From: Aurantiacibacter sp. D1-12
GTDB lineage: Bacteria > Pseudomonadota > Alphaproteobacteria > Sphingomonadales > Sphingomonadaceae
Length of the DNA stretch: 64,000 nucleotides
Assembly (NCBI RefSeq): GCF_028858515.1
Contig: NZ_JAPJZJ010000001.1
Location: 682,001-746,000, forward strand
Direction: 5' to 3'
Every line of letters begins with the position of its first letter. Position 1 is the stretch's first letter. Below, one piece after another: positions 2,114 to 18,749 of the stretch. A program made the translations under genes and the position numbers. Under the pieces are notes generated by a model that did not search any database, was not told the DNA's origin, and was given only the letters and a program-made list of their open reading frames with translations.

Positions 2114-2717
2114 TCCTGACGATCTCGATGGCGGCCAGAATCCCCAAGTGGATATAGGCCGTCATCGGATCGAAAGCGGTCAGCGCCCAGTGCACGAACA
2201 CAAGAATCGCTGCCGGATAGACCAGACGATGCAACCTCTTCCAGGCCCGCTTGAGCGCGCGCATCGACACATCATTTGATGTGATGGCGAGTGGCAGGAA
2301 CAACGCCAAAGCAATCCAGCCTGTCAGATATTGTGGCTGCAGCGCCTCTGCCGTGATGTTCTCAAGCAAACCCTTGCGCCACAGATAGATAATCGTGTGC
2401 TCCATCGCGTAGGCAAAACTTGCGACACCGATATCGCGCCGTCTGCGCATCAACCATTGCACCCATCCCGTCTTGCGGAAAGCGAGGCGCAGCGGCGTGA
2501 CGGCGAGGGTCACAAGCAATAGCCACGCAGCCCAGTCCCCGCTTTCGGCAATGGCATGACCGTAACCGTAGTCCTGCGGTGTCAGCCCCCAGCGCAGCAG
2601 CATCAACGCACCGGGAACGGCAAGGACGAGCCAGAGAAACGGTCGCGATTTGAGCAAGGACATGACGTTCCAATCGCCGAGCACTTGTGCTCCGTCAATC
2701 ACAAGCTTGTCTTGCAT
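2094..2717 (-). CDS. msrQ: MsrQ/YedZ-like heme-binding membrane subunit
   Basis: Integral membrane protein of ~207 residues with five to six hydrophobic helices and the ferric-reductase-like domain of MsrQ (YedZ), which passes quinol electrons to the periplasmic methionine sulfoxide reductase MsrP. Candidate heme ligands are the His in AMEHTIIYLW, in KRLHRLVYPAA and in LVFVHWAL. I chose ATG 2717 because a purine-rich GAGGG precedes it by 6 bases; ATG 2663 (MSLLKSRPF) is the alternative and begins right at the first helix. No msrP gene is adjacent, so the partner must be elsewhere. Confidence 0.78.
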   Translation of the reverse strand: MQDKLVIDGAQVLGDWNVMSLLKSRPFLWLVLAVPGALMLLRWGLTPQDYGYGHAIAESGDWAAWLLLVTLAVTPLRLAFRKTGWVQWLMRRRRDIGVASFAYAMEHTIIYLWRKGLLENITAEALQPQYLTGWIALALFLPLAITSNDVSMRALKRAWKRLHRLVYPAAILVFVHWALTAFDPMTAYIHLGILAAIEIVRIILQRR

Positions 2718-2746
2718 CCCCTGCCCTCGCCCTCCATCTACGCGGC

Positions 2747-3457
2747 ATGCCAGAAGCAAATCTGAAAAACATCGCCCTGCTGATTGATGCGGACAACGCC
2801 AGTCATGCAGGCATCGACCCCGTGCTCACCGTTTTAGCCGAGCTGGGCCAAGTGAATATCCGCCGTGCTTACGGGAACTGGGCCAAGCCTGCGCTTTCCA
2901 ACTGGAACAAGATCACCCACCGCTTCGGCATCCAGCCGATGCAGCAATTCGATCTGACCAAGGGCAAGAATGCCACCGATATCGCAATGGCGATCGATGC
3001 AATCGACCTCCTCAACGCAGGCAAGGTCGATGGGTTCGGGATCATGAGCAGCGACAGCGACTTTACGCCACTGGTCACGCGGCTACGGCAGGATGGCCTG
3101 ATTGTTTACGGGTTCGGCGGCGCAAAGGCTCCCGAAGCTTTCCGCTCTGCCTGCACACGTTACATCGATGTCGACCAGCTGATCCGGACCAATTCGCGCG
3201 ACGACAAGACCGAGAACAATGACGCGATCGATCAGGAGTTGATCGAACTGCTGGGTGAAGCTTGGAAAGCAGCGAGCCGTGATGATGAAGGCTTCGCTCG
3301 TCTGCACGAAGTAGGACAGATTGCCGGAAATCGCTCCAGCTTTGACGTGCGCAACCACGGCTACAAACGCCTGTCCGAAATGATGCGCGCGGCGAGCGAC
3401 AACTTCAAGATGGAACGACGCGACGACAAGCAGCTCTATGTGAAGCGCCTCAGGTAA
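2747..3457 (+). CDS. NYN-domain (LabA/DUF88-like) protein with C-terminal LOTUS domain
   Basis: 236 residues from ATG 2747 (MPEANLKN), where homology begins; an in-frame ATG at 2687 would add an unlikely extension. The N-terminal ~145 residues form a NYN (PIN-like) nuclease fold with conserved acids: LLIDADNAS, KNATDIAMAIDAIDLL and IMSSDSDFTPL. Residues ~165-236 resemble an OST-HTH/LOTUS RNA-binding domain (LIELLGEAWKAA, VGQIAGNRSSFDVRNHGYKRLSEMM). The family is thought to act on RNA; the substrate is unknown. It is divergent from msrQ with only about 30 bases between starts. Confidence 0.85.
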   Translation: MPEANLKNIALLIDADNASHAGIDPVLTVLAELGQVNIRRAYGNWAKPALSNWNKITHRFGIQPMQQFDLTKGKNATDIAMAIDAIDLLNAGKVDGFGIMSSDSDFTPLVTRLRQDGLIVYGFGGAKAPEAFRSACTRYIDVDQLIRTNSRDDKTENNDAIDQELIELLGEAWKAASRDDEGFARLHEVGQIAGNRSSFDVRNHGYKRLSEMMRAASDNFKMERRDDKQLYVKRLR

Positions 3458-3475
3458 GCCCAGATCGCAAAGCCC

Positions 3476-4081
3476 TTATTGAGCGTCCGTTGCGGCGTCC
3501 GGGATAGAATCCGCGCATTCTTCAGCGGAACCTTCGCAGCGCACAGTCCTGGAGTTTGGTTCTCCGACCCCATCGGCGGGAGCAGTGACTTCTTCGAATA
3601 CAGTCACCTCGCGGGGACCAAATAGGGCCCACGCCACCGCAGCAATAAGCAAACCTGCAAGCAGCCCCGCCGCAAATGCGTATCGGAGCGCGACTGCCGG
3701 ATAGGCCTTTTCCGACTGGAGTTCGGGTGAGCGCAGCGCAGTTTCCCTCGCATCCACAGGTAAAGCTGCGGGAACAACCGTCAATCGATAGCCCTGCCTT
3801 GGTTCGGTGCGAATAATCTCGCGGTTGCCCAATGCCTGTCGTAGCTTTGATACTGCTTGAGTGAGCGCCTCATCACTCCCCTCATCACCCCAGACAGCAT
3901 CGAGCAGCGCGTCACGGCTGACAATTTCACCGGCATGTTCGGAAAGGTGGTCCAGCAACCCCGCGATTCGGGGCTCAAGCCGGTACTCTGCACCGTCACG
4001 CATCACCAACCTTTCGTGAGGCTGATACCGCGCATCGCCGATGGCATAGTAGCCATGCGGTACAAGTGCCGTTGAATTCAT
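3476..4081 (-). CDS. Membrane-anchored winged-helix (CadC/ToxR-like) transcription regulator
   Basis: 201 residues from ATG 4081, chosen because GAGAGG sits 8 bases upstream. Residues ~18-105 are an OmpR/PhoB-type winged helix (RLEPRIAGLLDHL, AVSKLRQALGN, then IIRTEPRQGYRL, the typical wing end). A single transmembrane segment follows at ~130-155 (YAFAAGLLAGLLIAAVAWALF), then a short extracytoplasmic tail of ~45 residues with two Cys (VRCEGSAEECAD). The topology is that of CadC/ToxR sensors without a receiver domain. It is divergent from the secreted serine hydrolase at 4180, a plausible target. Confidence 0.82.
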   Translation of the reverse strand: MNSTALVPHGYYAIGDARYQPHERLVMRDGAEYRLEPRIAGLLDHLSEHAGEIVSRDALLDAVWGDEGSDEALTQAVSKLRQALGNREIIRTEPRQGYRLTVVPAALPVDARETALRSPELQSEKAYPAVALRYAFAAGLLAGLLIAAVAWALFGPREVTVFEEVTAPADGVGEPNSRTVRCEGSAEECADSIPDAATDAQ

Positions 4082-15436: not shown

Positions 15437-16438
15437 ATGCATGCCTTGAGAATGCTTCGCATCCTGCACTCTTTCTTGTTGACCCTGCTTTTGCTCATGC
15501 TGTCGCCGTCCACAGCAGTTGCCCAGACAGCAGATGATTGGGCATTGGTTGAAGCGCAAGATGTACGACTTGGGCGCATTGCCGGACTCATCATGACCGC
15601 AAACGCTTCGCTTTGCCGCGATCTGATGCCGGGGACCGGCATGGTCCTGCACAGTCGGGATCAATATCGCTCGGATGGCGCGGATCGGCGGTTTTCCAAT
15701 GGCGCAGTTGCCGTTTCGGCGGTGGTGCCGGGCTCTGCGGCTGCACAAGCTGGTGTGGCGCGCGACGACGGGTTGATAGCGATCAATGGCCGGGCAATCA
15801 GCGAACTACCTCAACCCGAGACAGGGAACCTGCGGGAACTCGTGTTTGATCTGCTTGCCTCACATCCCGTGGATCAACCACTCAGTCTGACTATAGCACG
15901 AGCGGGGGAGCAAAGAACTGTGACGATATCTGCTCCGCCCGCATGCCGAAGCCTTGTCGAAATCCGTCTCGGCAATGGTCCGCGTGCGATTTCTGACGGA
16001 CGGGTGATCCAGATCCGTTTCGACTTTGCCCGGTCTGTGAGCGATGAAGAACTTGCAGTCATCTTTGCACACGAGCTGGCGCACAGCGTCCTTGAGCATC
16101 GCCGCCGGAAGGAAGATGCCGGAATTGCTGTCGGTTTCATGGGAGAATTAGGCCGCAACCAGCGTGCCAACCGACAGGCCGAGGTCGAGGCGGATCGGCT
16201 TTCGGTGCATCTCCTCGCCAACGCGGGTTATGATCCGGGGGCGGCTCCGGTTTTCTGGCGCACAGGTAGTGGGCGCGAGTTGGGGGGCGGCCTACTCGGC
16301 AGCACTATCTATCCTTCGAACACGGCGCGCGCCGAATTGCTCGAAAACGAGATCGCTATGTACCTGCCGCTAGGGCGCGGGCCAAGCTGGCCCGGTCACC
16401 TACTGATCATGCGCGATCGTTCATTCAGCTTGGATTGA
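15437..16438 (+). CDS. Secreted M48-like metalloprotease with PDZ domain
   Basis: 333 residues with a signal peptide (cleavage after AVAQ, ~residue 30). A PDZ-like segment lies at ~95-170 (VVPGSAAAQAGVARDDGLIAING). The zinc protease motif HELAH is at ~213-217, with a second motif EVEADRLSVHLL giving the third ligand Glu. The domain order PDZ then HExxH is reversed relative to many PDZ proteases. Probable periplasmic peptidase; substrate unknown. Confidence 0.82.
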   Translation: MHALRMLRILHSFLLTLLLLMLSPSTAVAQTADDWALVEAQDVRLGRIAGLIMTANASLCRDLMPGTGMVLHSRDQYRSDGADRRFSNGAVAVSAVVPGSAAAQAGVARDDGLIAINGRAISELPQPETGNLRELVFDLLASHPVDQPLSLTIARAGEQRTVTISAPPACRSLVEIRLGNGPRAISDGRVIQIRFDFARSVSDEELAVIFAHELAHSVLEHRRRKEDAGIAVGFMGELGRNQRANRQAEVEADRLSVHLLANAGYDPGAAPVFWRTGSGRELGGGLLGSTIYPSNTARAELLENEIAMYLPLGRGPSWPGHLLIMRDRSFSLD

Positions 16439-16447
16439 GCAATCACC

Positions 16448-16966
16448 CTACCCGCGCCGCGCCTTCTCCGGCGCCTCGCTGATATCGATGTAATGCCTGT
16501 CGAAGTAGGTAAGCGGCGTTGCATCCTCGCGGTGGCTCGCGGCGATGAGCTCTCCCACAAAGATTGTGTGGGTCCCGAAAACGTGTCGATTCGCAACCGA
16601 GCAAATCAGGCTCGATTGGGCAGTTTGCAGCACCGGGACGCCATGCTGCTCCTCCCAATCGCCAACCGAAAAACGATCGGCCTCAGGGATCATGAAGTGA
16701 TCCGCCACATCGCGATTGGATAGGCCAAGCACGTTCACGCAGAACCGCTCCGCCTCTGCCATCGGATCGTGCAGCGAGGCACCACGATTGATGCATGCAA
16801 GAAGCGAGGGGGGCGAAAAGCTCAGCGAACTCACCGCAGTGGCAAGAATGCCGTAGGGTTTGCCATCATTGATTGTCGTGACAGCATAGACAGTCGCCGC
16901 AACATGGCGCATGGCCTCACGGAAGGAATCTGTCAGCTCGGCTTCGCCTTTTCCTGTCTCCGTCAT
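16448..16966 (-). CDS. Flavin reductase family protein (NADH:FMN oxidoreductase-like)
   Basis: 172 residues of the flavin reductase-like split-barrel family: FREAMRHVAATVYAVTT, GILATAVSSLSFSPPSLLACIN, RFCVNVLGLSNRDVADHF and the C-terminal HVFGTHTIFVGEL then PLTYFDRHY. Members reduce FMN or FAD with NAD(P)H for partner monooxygenases. It is divergent from the riboflavin gene at 17071 and shares its palindromic control region, a natural link between flavin supply and use. Confidence 0.88.
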   Translation of the reverse strand: MTETGKGEAELTDSFREAMRHVAATVYAVTTINDGKPYGILATAVSSLSFSPPSLLACINRGASLHDPMAEAERFCVNVLGLSNRDVADHFMIPEADRFSVGDWEEQHGVPVLQTAQSSLICSVANRHVFGTHTIFVGELIAASHREDATPLTYFDRHYIDISEAPEKARRG

Positions 16967-17019: not shown

Positions 17020-17059
17020 AATGTGATGAATTGCACTTGCGATCACATTTTAATGTGAT
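17020..17059. promoter_or_regulatory. Three-half-site operator between flavin reductase and HTH-RibBX
   Basis: Three perfect 8-base half-sites: AATGTGAT at 17020-17027, ATCACATT at 17042-17049 and AATGTGAT at 17052-17059. The last two form a perfect inverted repeat with a 2-base spacer; the first is a direct repeat of the third 32 bases (about three helical turns) away. TTGCAC at 17031-17036 could be a -35, with a -10 overlapping the third half-site. The site ends 11 bases before the ribB-type start and is 54-93 bases upstream of the divergent flavin reductase. The obvious candidate ligand is the HTH domain of the adjacent protein (inference). Confidence 0.65.
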
Positions 17060-17070
17060 ATGCGGTTTAC

Positions 17071-18321
17071 ATGAGCGATATTATCATAGAAAAAGTCCGC
17101 AATATCATAGACTCCGGCAAAATGACTCGTGCCGGGCTGGCCCGGGCAGCTGGGCTGCATGCCAATACTCTGCGCGATTGTGCCGAAGATGGGTGGAATC
17201 CGACGACTGAGACTCTCAACAAGCTCGATCGCTTCCTCTCCGAAAATGACGATACGCCAGTACTTGTCGGGATTGAGGAGATCATCGACGAGGCTCGCAA
17301 TGGCCGGATGTACATCCTGGTCGATGACGAAGATCGGGAGAACGAAGGCGACCTGATTATCCCGGCGCAGATGGCAACACCCGCCGCCATCAATTTCATG
17401 GCGACTCATGGACGTGGCCTCATCTGCCTCTCACTTGATCGCGCGCGGGTCGACACACTCGGCCTGGAGCCGATGAGCCGCAACAATCGTGAAAGCATGC
17501 AGACCGCCTTCACCATCTCCATCGAGGCGAAGGAAGGTGTGACCACCGGCATCTCCGCCGCAGATCGTGCTCGCACTGTCTCGGTAGCGATAGATAGCGG
17601 CAAAGGGCCGGACGATATCGTGACACCGGGCCATGTCTTCCCGCTCACCGCACGCGATGGCGGTGTCCTTGTCCGCGCTGGCCATACCGAAGCAGCGGTC
17701 GACATATCGCGGCTCGCCGGCCTCAACCCCTCTGGCGTGATCTGCGAGATCATGAACGAAGACGGCTCAATGGCGCGGCTTGATGATCTGATCGCCTTTG
17801 CCCGCCAGCACGGGCTCAAGATCGGCACTATCCGCGATCTGATTGCCTATCGCATGCGCAACGATCACCTTGTAGAGCGCGGCGACGAACGCGCTTTCGA
17901 AAGCGATTACGGCGGCAGCTGGCGGATGATCACGTACCGCAACAAGGTTTCCAATAACGAGGCCTATGTCCTTCAAAAAGGACATGTTATTCCCGGCGAG
18001 CCCACCCTCGCCCGTGTCCACCCGATCTCGGTCTTTGATGATGTACTGGGCGAACCGGGCCCGCGCAAACGCACGCTTCAGCGCGCAATGCAGGCCGTGG
18101 GAGAGCATGGTTCGGGCGTCATCGTCATCCTTACCGGGCGCGTCGGTTCAAGCACAAACTGGACCTCGGAAGACGAGCTACGCAACGTCGGAATCGGTTC
18201 GCAAATCCTGGCCGATCTGGGCGTGCATGATATGATCCTACTCACCAACTCGCAGCCGAATGTCGTTGCAATCGAAGGTTATGGCCTGAATATTGTCGGC
18301 CACCACCCGATACCGGAGTAA
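17071..18321 (+). CDS. ribB: HTH-RibBX fusion: 3,4-dihydroxy-2-butanone-4-phosphate synthase
   Basis: 416 residues in three parts. Residues ~5-58 are an XRE-like helix-turn-helix ([12 protein letters not shown], then [12 protein letters not shown]). Residues ~65-275 are RibB with the catalytic [34 protein letters not shown] and [11 protein letters not shown] motifs; RibB converts ribulose 5-phosphate to the four-carbon riboflavin precursor. Residues ~285-416 align with GTP cyclohydrolase II, but the zinc-binding cysteines are absent ([16 protein letters not shown] where RibA has Cys residues), so it is a RibX-type degenerate domain and RibA must be supplied elsewhere. The start codon is 11 bases after a palindromic operator, suggesting autoregulation. 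ribH follows 8 bases later. Confidence 0.9.
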
Positions 18322-18329
18322 CATACCCG

Positions 18330-18749
18330 ATGGCCCATTTCCTGATCGTCGAAGCGCGGTTCTATGCGCATCTGAATGACATGCTGATTGCTGGCGCCAA
18401 AGGCGCTTTGGAGGCGGCTGGCCATACAGTGGATGTTATCACCGTGCCCGGAGCGCTTGAAGTACCGGGTGCGATTGCGCTCGCAGCGGATAGCGGCAAG
18501 TATGACGGCTTCGTCGCCCTCGGCGTGGTGATCCGTGGAGAGACTTACCACTTCGAAATCGTGGCTGAAGAAAGCGCGCGAGGCATCATGGCACTGACGA
18601 TTGACGGGATCGCCATCGGCAATGGTATCCTGACGACAGAGAACGAGGAGCAGGCGATTGTTCGCGCTGATCCGGCGCAAAGCAACAAGGGCTCAGGTGC
18701 TGCCGTGGCCGCGATGCGGTTGCTGGAGCTGCGCGGACAGTTCGGGTGA
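18330..18749 (+). CDS. ribH: 6,7-dimethyl-8-ribityllumazine synthase
   Basis: 139 residues. Condenses the RibB product with the ribityl pyrimidine to lumazine, the penultimate step to riboflavin. Family motifs are [34 protein letters not shown] (with the catalytic His) and [14 protein letters not shown]. It lies 8 bases after the HTH-RibBX gene and is probably co-transcribed. Confidence 0.95.

Follow-up and report, generated by a model that had tools for sequence, protein, structure and literature searches.

A RibBX enzyme with an N-terminal Cro-like domain as a predicted repressor of its own promoter, with a phage cro-like gene and operator as the likely source

Metabolic enzymes that repress the genes of their own pathway have been described in several systems. 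RbkR is an archaeal riboflavin kinase-regulator. Two further enzyme-repressors, PutA and BirA, are described in the consulted part of PMC6978683. The protein considered here, a RibBX with a helix-turn-helix (HTH) domain, would follow the same principle; however, PutA, BirA and RbkR are built from other enzymes and other DNA-binding domains, whereas the exact sites of RibBX are found almost only at its own promoter and homologues of its HTH stand alone in viral contigs with similar operators. The enzyme part resembles the RibBX proteins of the S. oneidensis and A. salmonicida type, in which RibB is joined to a cyclohydrolase II-like domain that lacks this activity; according to the consulted part of PMC10012899, the X domain of the S. 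oneidensis protein acts as a regulator of RibB activity, with the mechanism unknown, and that part mentions neither an N-terminal HTH nor DNA binding for these proteins. In Wolbachia, as far as the consulted part of PMC3518464 goes, wBmxR1 and wBmxR2 bind the ribA promoter, have a positive effect on a ribA reporter and have further targets; they are likewise transcription factors at a riboflavin gene promoter in an alphaproteobacterium, but they are separate proteins, with a positive effect and with other targets. Feedback control of riboflavin genes is also exerted by the FMN riboswitch (RF00050; consulted part of PMC10012899), which is an RNA element, unlike RibBX. Our search of the open-access literature turned up no account of an HTH-RibB fusion, and a term search of recent reviews for DNA-binding, helix-turn-helix or Sphingo gave nothing. 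As PutA and BirA are known, the novelty is in the fusion and not in the enzyme-repressor principle, and the HTH-RibB fusion, with its unusual origin, appears new within the open-access literature. With a probability of about 0.8, we propose from sequence comparisons that RibBX represses its own promoter, a captured phage Cro-like domain and its operator having made the enzyme an autorepressor.

The window, by which we mean the whole analysed stretch of 64,000 nucleotides, contains the ribBX gene with the following domains and neighbours:

17071 to 18321, + strand: ribBX, an HTH-RibB-degenerate RibA fusion of 416 aa (ORF translation, Pfam, NCBIfam)
17071 to 17250, + strand: HTH domain of the Cro/CI-like kind, residues 1-60 (PHROG, AlphaFold, Foldseek, profile comparison)
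17158 to 17175, + strand: recognition-helix segment HANTLR, residues 30-35 (alignments; association with operator sequence)
17275 to 17850, + strand: RibB domain (Pfam DHBP_synthase), residues 69-260 (Pfam; RAGHTEA motif present)
17887 to 18318, + strand: RibX, a cysteine-free GTP cyclohydrolase II-like domain, residues 273-416 (Pfam, NCBIfam, alignment)
18330 to 18749, + strand: ribH, lumazine synthase (Pfam, NCBIfam)
16448 to 16966, - strand: flavin reductase, divergent from ribBX (Pfam)

Pfam placed DHBP_synthase at residues 69-260 of the ribBX product and GTP_cyclohydro2 from residue 273. Among the NCBIfam models, the RibB model TIGR00506 gave 234.3 bits against a cut-off of 177.45, and the RibA model TIGR00505 and the bifunctional RibBA models stayed below cut-off. 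RAGHTEA and a further motif of the RibB domain have a catalytic role. There is no cysteine in residues 270-416, and the alignment sets VHPISV...EPGPR of the window protein against VHSECL...RCDCG of the RibBA chain 4i14_A, whose cysteines in these motifs are zinc ligands. The product is thus a RibB followed by a cyclohydrolase II-like domain without cysteines, that is, a RibBX, and it probably has no GTP cyclohydrolase II activity; the same genome has a separate full-length match to GTP cyclohydrolase II at another locus (G000:C5:518342). The first-pass annotation had already read the gene as an HTH fused to RibB and to a cysteine-less cyclohydrolase II-like domain, and this reading is confirmed. 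The ribH gene, probably co-transcribed with ribBX, is found downstream of it in 88 of 102 relatives (the listed HTH loci described below). Beyond the flavin reductase gene, at 15437-16438, there is by eye a PDZ/M48-type peptidase-like gene, a homologue of which lies upstream, on the ribBX strand, in 8 of the 102 listed HTH loci.

No Pfam model matched the HTH over the curated cut-off (HTH_26 gave 12.6 bits, E 0.17, against a cut-off of 22), and its matches to PHROG transcription regulators were weak, with a best E of 5e-4. The AlphaFold model of the domain (pLDDT 81) resembles HipB, P22 c2 and 434 Cro, which were among the Foldseek matches, none of them at E<=0.001, and comparison of profile A7 with HipB gave an E of 3e-4, other matches being weaker. 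The full-length AlphaFold model of RibBX was poor (pLDDT 50.6).

Upstream of ribBX, the following elements were read from the sequence:

17020 to 17027, + strand: distal half-site AATGTGAT (sequence reading, word count)
17042 to 17059, + strand: predicted proximal operator palindrome ATCACATTttAATGTGAT (sequence reading; core TCACATNNNNATGTGA in relatives)
17037 to 17042, + strand: -35-like TTGCGA, which abuts the palindrome (sequence reading; TTG in relatives)
17056 to 17064, + strand: extended -10-like tgatatgcg (TGnTA...; TGnTA in relatives)

The palindrome is made up of ATCACATT at 17042-17049, which is AATGTGAT on the - strand, and of AATGTGAT at 17052-17059 on the + strand, and ATCACATTttAATGTGAT ends 11 bases before the ATG at 17071; three perfect half-sites at 17020-17059, two of them forming a palindrome at this distance from the start, had been noticed earlier and are confirmed. 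The 64 kb window holds 4 copies of AATGTGAT against 1.81 expected from shuffles, and three of the four are within the 40 bases 17020-17059. When the distal half-site is read as the right half of a dyad, its centre is 32 bp, or about three turns, from the proximal dyad. In its own genome, the palindrome ATCACATTNNAATGTGAT occurs exactly at ribBX only, and with 3 mismatches at six other places, compared with 4 for the reversed control. We dropped a CRP-like reading of the half-sites because, compared with the CRP consensus, they face the opposite way.

We then compared the loci of relatives with and without the HTH. A RibBX match was present in 189 of 196 genomes of the order; among the matches listed, the HTH-bearing ones, which start at query residue 1-6, were all in the family of the window, and the RibBX of families f2 to f8 were without the HTH. 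Every HTH match listed for the order was taken (102 loci), together with a selection of 28 loci from the listed HTH-less matches, 12 of them from the family of the window. The sequence TCACATnnnnATGTGA, with up to 2 mismatches in 12, was present within 200 bp upstream in 102/102 listed HTH loci and in 0/28 HTH-less loci, a limit chosen after the gap between the two groups was seen. Mismatches to the core TCACATNNNNATGTGA numbered 0 in 59, 1 in 33 and 2 in 10 of the listed HTH loci, whereas the best match within 200 bp upstream of the HTH-less loci had 3; shuffled upstream sequences of the HTH loci reached 2 mismatches or fewer in about 1.2%. As the starts of HTH-less genes may be misplaced, these loci were scanned again over a wider stretch, which began 400 bp before the assumed start and ran as far as the RibB motif, and the best match again had 3 mismatches (0/28 at 2 or fewer). 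In the core alignment the central columns reach 2 bits, and the columns on either side of the core hardly rise above background.

On a tree of the 130 enzymes, aligned without the HTH domain, the HTH label changed at least 8 times and the operator label 8 times, with 0/130 loci discordant; the well-supported (starred) branches alone give 4 independent pairs, 4/4 concordant, which is non-significant in a sign test (p = 0.125). Two genomes carry both kinds of copy (G080, with L057 and the HTH-less L108, and G179, with L039 and the HTH-less L119), and in both the operator is at the HTH copy only. Conservation of the half-sites together with the HTH domain had been named as a check by the first-pass annotation, and this association held throughout. 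In a second sample an HTH match was found in 84 of 109 family genomes, a few in short or doubtful frames only, and 25 were without one. Among plasmids, two Novosphingobium replicons have an HTH match, one of them annotated as ribB.

The exact core was found at 45 places in 43 of the 109 family genomes, with 0 for the reversed control, and all 43 genomes also have an HTH match. By comparison of the lists by eye, 41 of the 45 sites are at most 100 bp from the edge of an HTH match, so that the regulon seems to be ribBX itself, possible local additions aside. The remaining four are in the prophage of G208, near a terminase-like gene in G264, inside a listed ORF in G266, and beyond ribBX-ribH in G025. 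In this last genome (L203:3930-3945) the exact core, with an extra ATGTGA half, precedes, by about 95 bp, an ORF of 84 aa that is membrane-protein-like and a possible second target in that species. In G264 (L197:5186-5316) the exact core and overlapping near-copies precede this gene, which by eye resembles that of a phage terminase. The G208 prophage has a second core-like pair, 31 bp apart, at L195:4373-4419, about 2.8 kb from its cro-like gene.

The divergent arrangement in the window raises the possibility that the operator mainly serves the flavin reductase, as part of a flavin-use regulon. In the window and in 9 other loci a flavin reductase gene on the opposite strand starts at a distance of 64-112 bp from the core, and it is the neighbour in all 6 loci of the genus of the window in the set; however, it was not found as a neighbour in 92 of the 102 listed HTH loci (27 of which have ribE upstream), and the operator is present in all 102. 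As the gene adjoins only 10 of the 102, the operator is not kept for the flavin reductase, and we consider this explanation highly unlikely. The earlier idea of an operator shared with the flavin reductase thus concerns a local arrangement, in which the operator may also act on the flavin reductase. A second idea, that the HTH took the place of an FMN riboswitch, also fared unevenly. The Rfam model RF00050 had no match in the window, and none in the 109 family genomes, whether or not they carry the HTH, in a search that was positive for 7 of 14 controls and whose filters lose some weak matches. Since the 25 genomes without an HTH match gave no riboswitch match either, its absence does not track the fusion.

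Homologues of the HTH occur as stand-alone proteins, most of them in viral contigs, and similarly built palindromes precede the genes of these proteins. Profile A1, in which 13 of 14 rows are RibBX HTHs, matched profile A5, of 6 viral sequences, with a probability of 99.1, and the window HTH is homologous to a stand-alone Cro-like family with a WNPT motif, defined here. The only HTH match of G208 is not a RibBX but a protein of 68 aa (84 aa from an upstream GTG), whose gene diverges from that of a repressor containing an S24 peptidase domain; two operators lie between the two genes. The same stretch is L212 of IMG/VR; its protein shares 28/56 identical residues with the window HTH, and its two TCACAT-type sites, 31 bp apart, have 1-2 mismatches each. 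L218, also from IMG/VR, has three such sites, 30 and 40 bp apart, again with 1-2 mismatches each. Both loci share with RibBX the homologous HTH and TCACATnnnnATGTGA-type sites just upstream; they differ from it in that the proteins, of 68 and 140 aa, stand alone. In tblastn searches of phage GenBank records the RibBX HTH had no match and the prophage homologue had six, namely Pan3 (E 2e-8) and five weak Bacillus phage matches, and a class-wide profile search gave matches, mostly weak, in 55 of 385 genomes.

Further stand-alone relatives were gathered by scans of viral contigs and genomes, and their upstream regions were searched for palindromes without a preset motif and scored against 60 shuffles per locus, which revealed sites before most of the relatives tested. 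The TCACAT type of L212 and L218 and the [AGC]TGCA type of L217 and L219 were equalled in 0/60 shuffles, and the same holds for the [TAC]CGCAT (TCGCAT-type) sites of L214, L215, L220/L221, L223 and L259/L271, except L221 with 2. A palindrome GCATATnnnnATATGC, of GCATAT type, is common to L200, L201/L233 and Pan3 (L224), relatives without Arg35, and may be a third operator class; taken alone, it was not above shuffles in L201 and L233 (10 and 9 of 60), and the sites of L200, L224 and L270 were chosen by eye. For L213, L216, L265 and L274 the palindrome search gave no clear operator, and the matched loci L235, L236, L262 and L266-L269 were left out because the pattern used did not detect the motif in them. 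The search is weak for single sites, as seen at RibBX loci themselves, where 0 (L277), 4 (L275), 12 (L273) and 40 (L276) of 60 shuffles scored as high.

Across these loci the operator sequence appears to follow the recognition helix, with one exception. Residue 32 (Asn versus Thr/Ser) is associated with the third operator base (4/1/0/7, Fisher p = 0.010) and residue 35 (Arg or not) with GCATAT (3/0/0/12, p = 0.0022), p-values that are guides, as the 15 rows of the table, with RibBX counted once, were hand-set after the sites were seen and include some close relatives. The exception is L270, where Asn32 goes with a TCGCA-type site, which shows that the code is not a strict one. That the HTH binds the operator, as the first-pass annotation had suggested in proposing self-regulation, is supported by the co-occurrence across 130 loci and by the matching palindromes of the stand-alone homologues. 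If instead a separate regulator bound the palindrome, the HTH would be structural or would bind elsewhere, and the sub-threshold Pfam score of the HTH and the distal site of the window, which is a half-site only, would be in keeping with this. However, the operator is missing from the 28 HTH-less loci, including L108 and L119 beside HTH copies in the same genomes, and the stand-alone relatives carry the same kind of site; we regard it as the least probable of the explanations considered.

The position of the operator suggests how the predicted autorepression would work. In 86 of the 102 listed HTH loci the core ends at most 15 bp from the start codon (short-spaced loci), and in 74 of the 102 this distance is 12 or 13 bp. 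In 62/86 short-spaced relatives a TTG occurs at -8, -7 or -6 relative to the core, and TGnTA overlaps the right end of the core in 63/86, compared with 11/86 for T-A at the mirror position; in the 16 other loci both are less frequent (TGnTA 8/16, TTG at -7 4/16). An SD-like motif is absent in 81/86 short-spaced loci and present in 8/16 of the others and 13/28 of the HTH-less. In the window, TTGCGA and TATGCG are separated by 16 bp, which places the predicted +1 at about the ATG, near 17071. We infer promoter occlusion and a leaderless mRNA from this layout. RibBX has DNA-binding and enzyme domains in one chain and a conserved operator at its own promoter, as in a trigger enzyme that acts as autorepressor, and is predicted to bind the operator and repress transcription. 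The HTH domains of a RibB dimer would sit on the proximal palindrome, which occupies the stretch from -35 to -10, and would thereby keep RNA polymerase off the promoter; the distal half-site, which is three helical turns further upstream, may aid the binding of a second dimer. The transcript would start at or beside the ATG, and the enzyme level would be kept at a set point with no FMN riboswitch involved.

Of the 102 listed HTH loci, 62 have a distal ATGTGA half at most 60 bp upstream of the core; of these halves (n=63), 46 are at a dyad spacing of 31 or 32 bp, as would be expected if two dimers were bound to the same side of the helix. As most of them are upstream of the -35-like element, RibBX could instead be an activator, with the distal half-site as the activating site. 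The invariant site is nevertheless the proximal one, over the promoter spacer, and the exact distal half is missing in 40 of the 102, for which reason activation seems unlikely to us and repression the better reading.

The repression proposed could in addition follow flavin status, if FMN, riboflavin, ribulose 5-phosphate or an intermediate, bound at RibX or RibB, altered operator binding. RibX is retained despite the missing cyclohydrolase cysteines, with a full-length cyclohydrolase match elsewhere in the genome, no riboswitch was found in the 109 family genomes, and in S. oneidensis the activity of RibB is under the control of the X domain (consulted part of PMC10012899). However, the RibX-like part is also kept in the HTH-less RibBX of the order, so that its retention is independent of the HTH and, given the effect of the Shewanella X domain in that source, RibX may affect catalysis only. 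Operator binding that changes with a ligand held by RibB or RibX is thus possible but unsupported, and we put it forward tentatively, as a somewhat doubtful extension of plain autorepression.

As to origin, a phage cro-like gene and its operator are the most likely source of the fusion: the gene would have been joined in frame to ribBX together with the operator, and domain and target site gained in one event. A second fusion was found in a proteobacterial MAG (L272, JADFTO010000014.1), where at 2453-3925 an HTH sharing 19/54 residues with that of the window is fused to PseC, an enzyme of the pseudaminic acid pathway, adjoining PseB; the PseC part scores 464.8 bits with TIGR03588, against a cut-off of 423.5. 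The sites TAACACAGTTATGTGA and TCACATTTTCGTGTGA (about 2429-2475) are 31 bp apart, equalled in 1/60 shuffles, and TCACATTTTCGTGTGA, with TTGACG in front of it, is followed after 13 bp by an in-frame TTG, a layout like that of ribBX. As it was seen in one MAG contig, the HTH-PseC fusion may be an assembly error. We give even odds to the broader idea that phage cro-like genes and the operators next to them form a portable cassette for autoregulation, fixed once at ribBX in an ancestor within the family, lost several times as a unit, and arisen separately before pseC with the same spacing of -35, palindrome and start.

If true, the finding would account for the control of an essential vitamin pathway in one bacterial family without an FMN riboswitch, and it would show how a metabolic enzyme can evolve into its own repressor in a simple way, namely by acquiring a phage repressor together with its operator in a single piece. 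With its three or more operator classes, the stand-alone family would be a natural test bed for the rules of HTH recognition.
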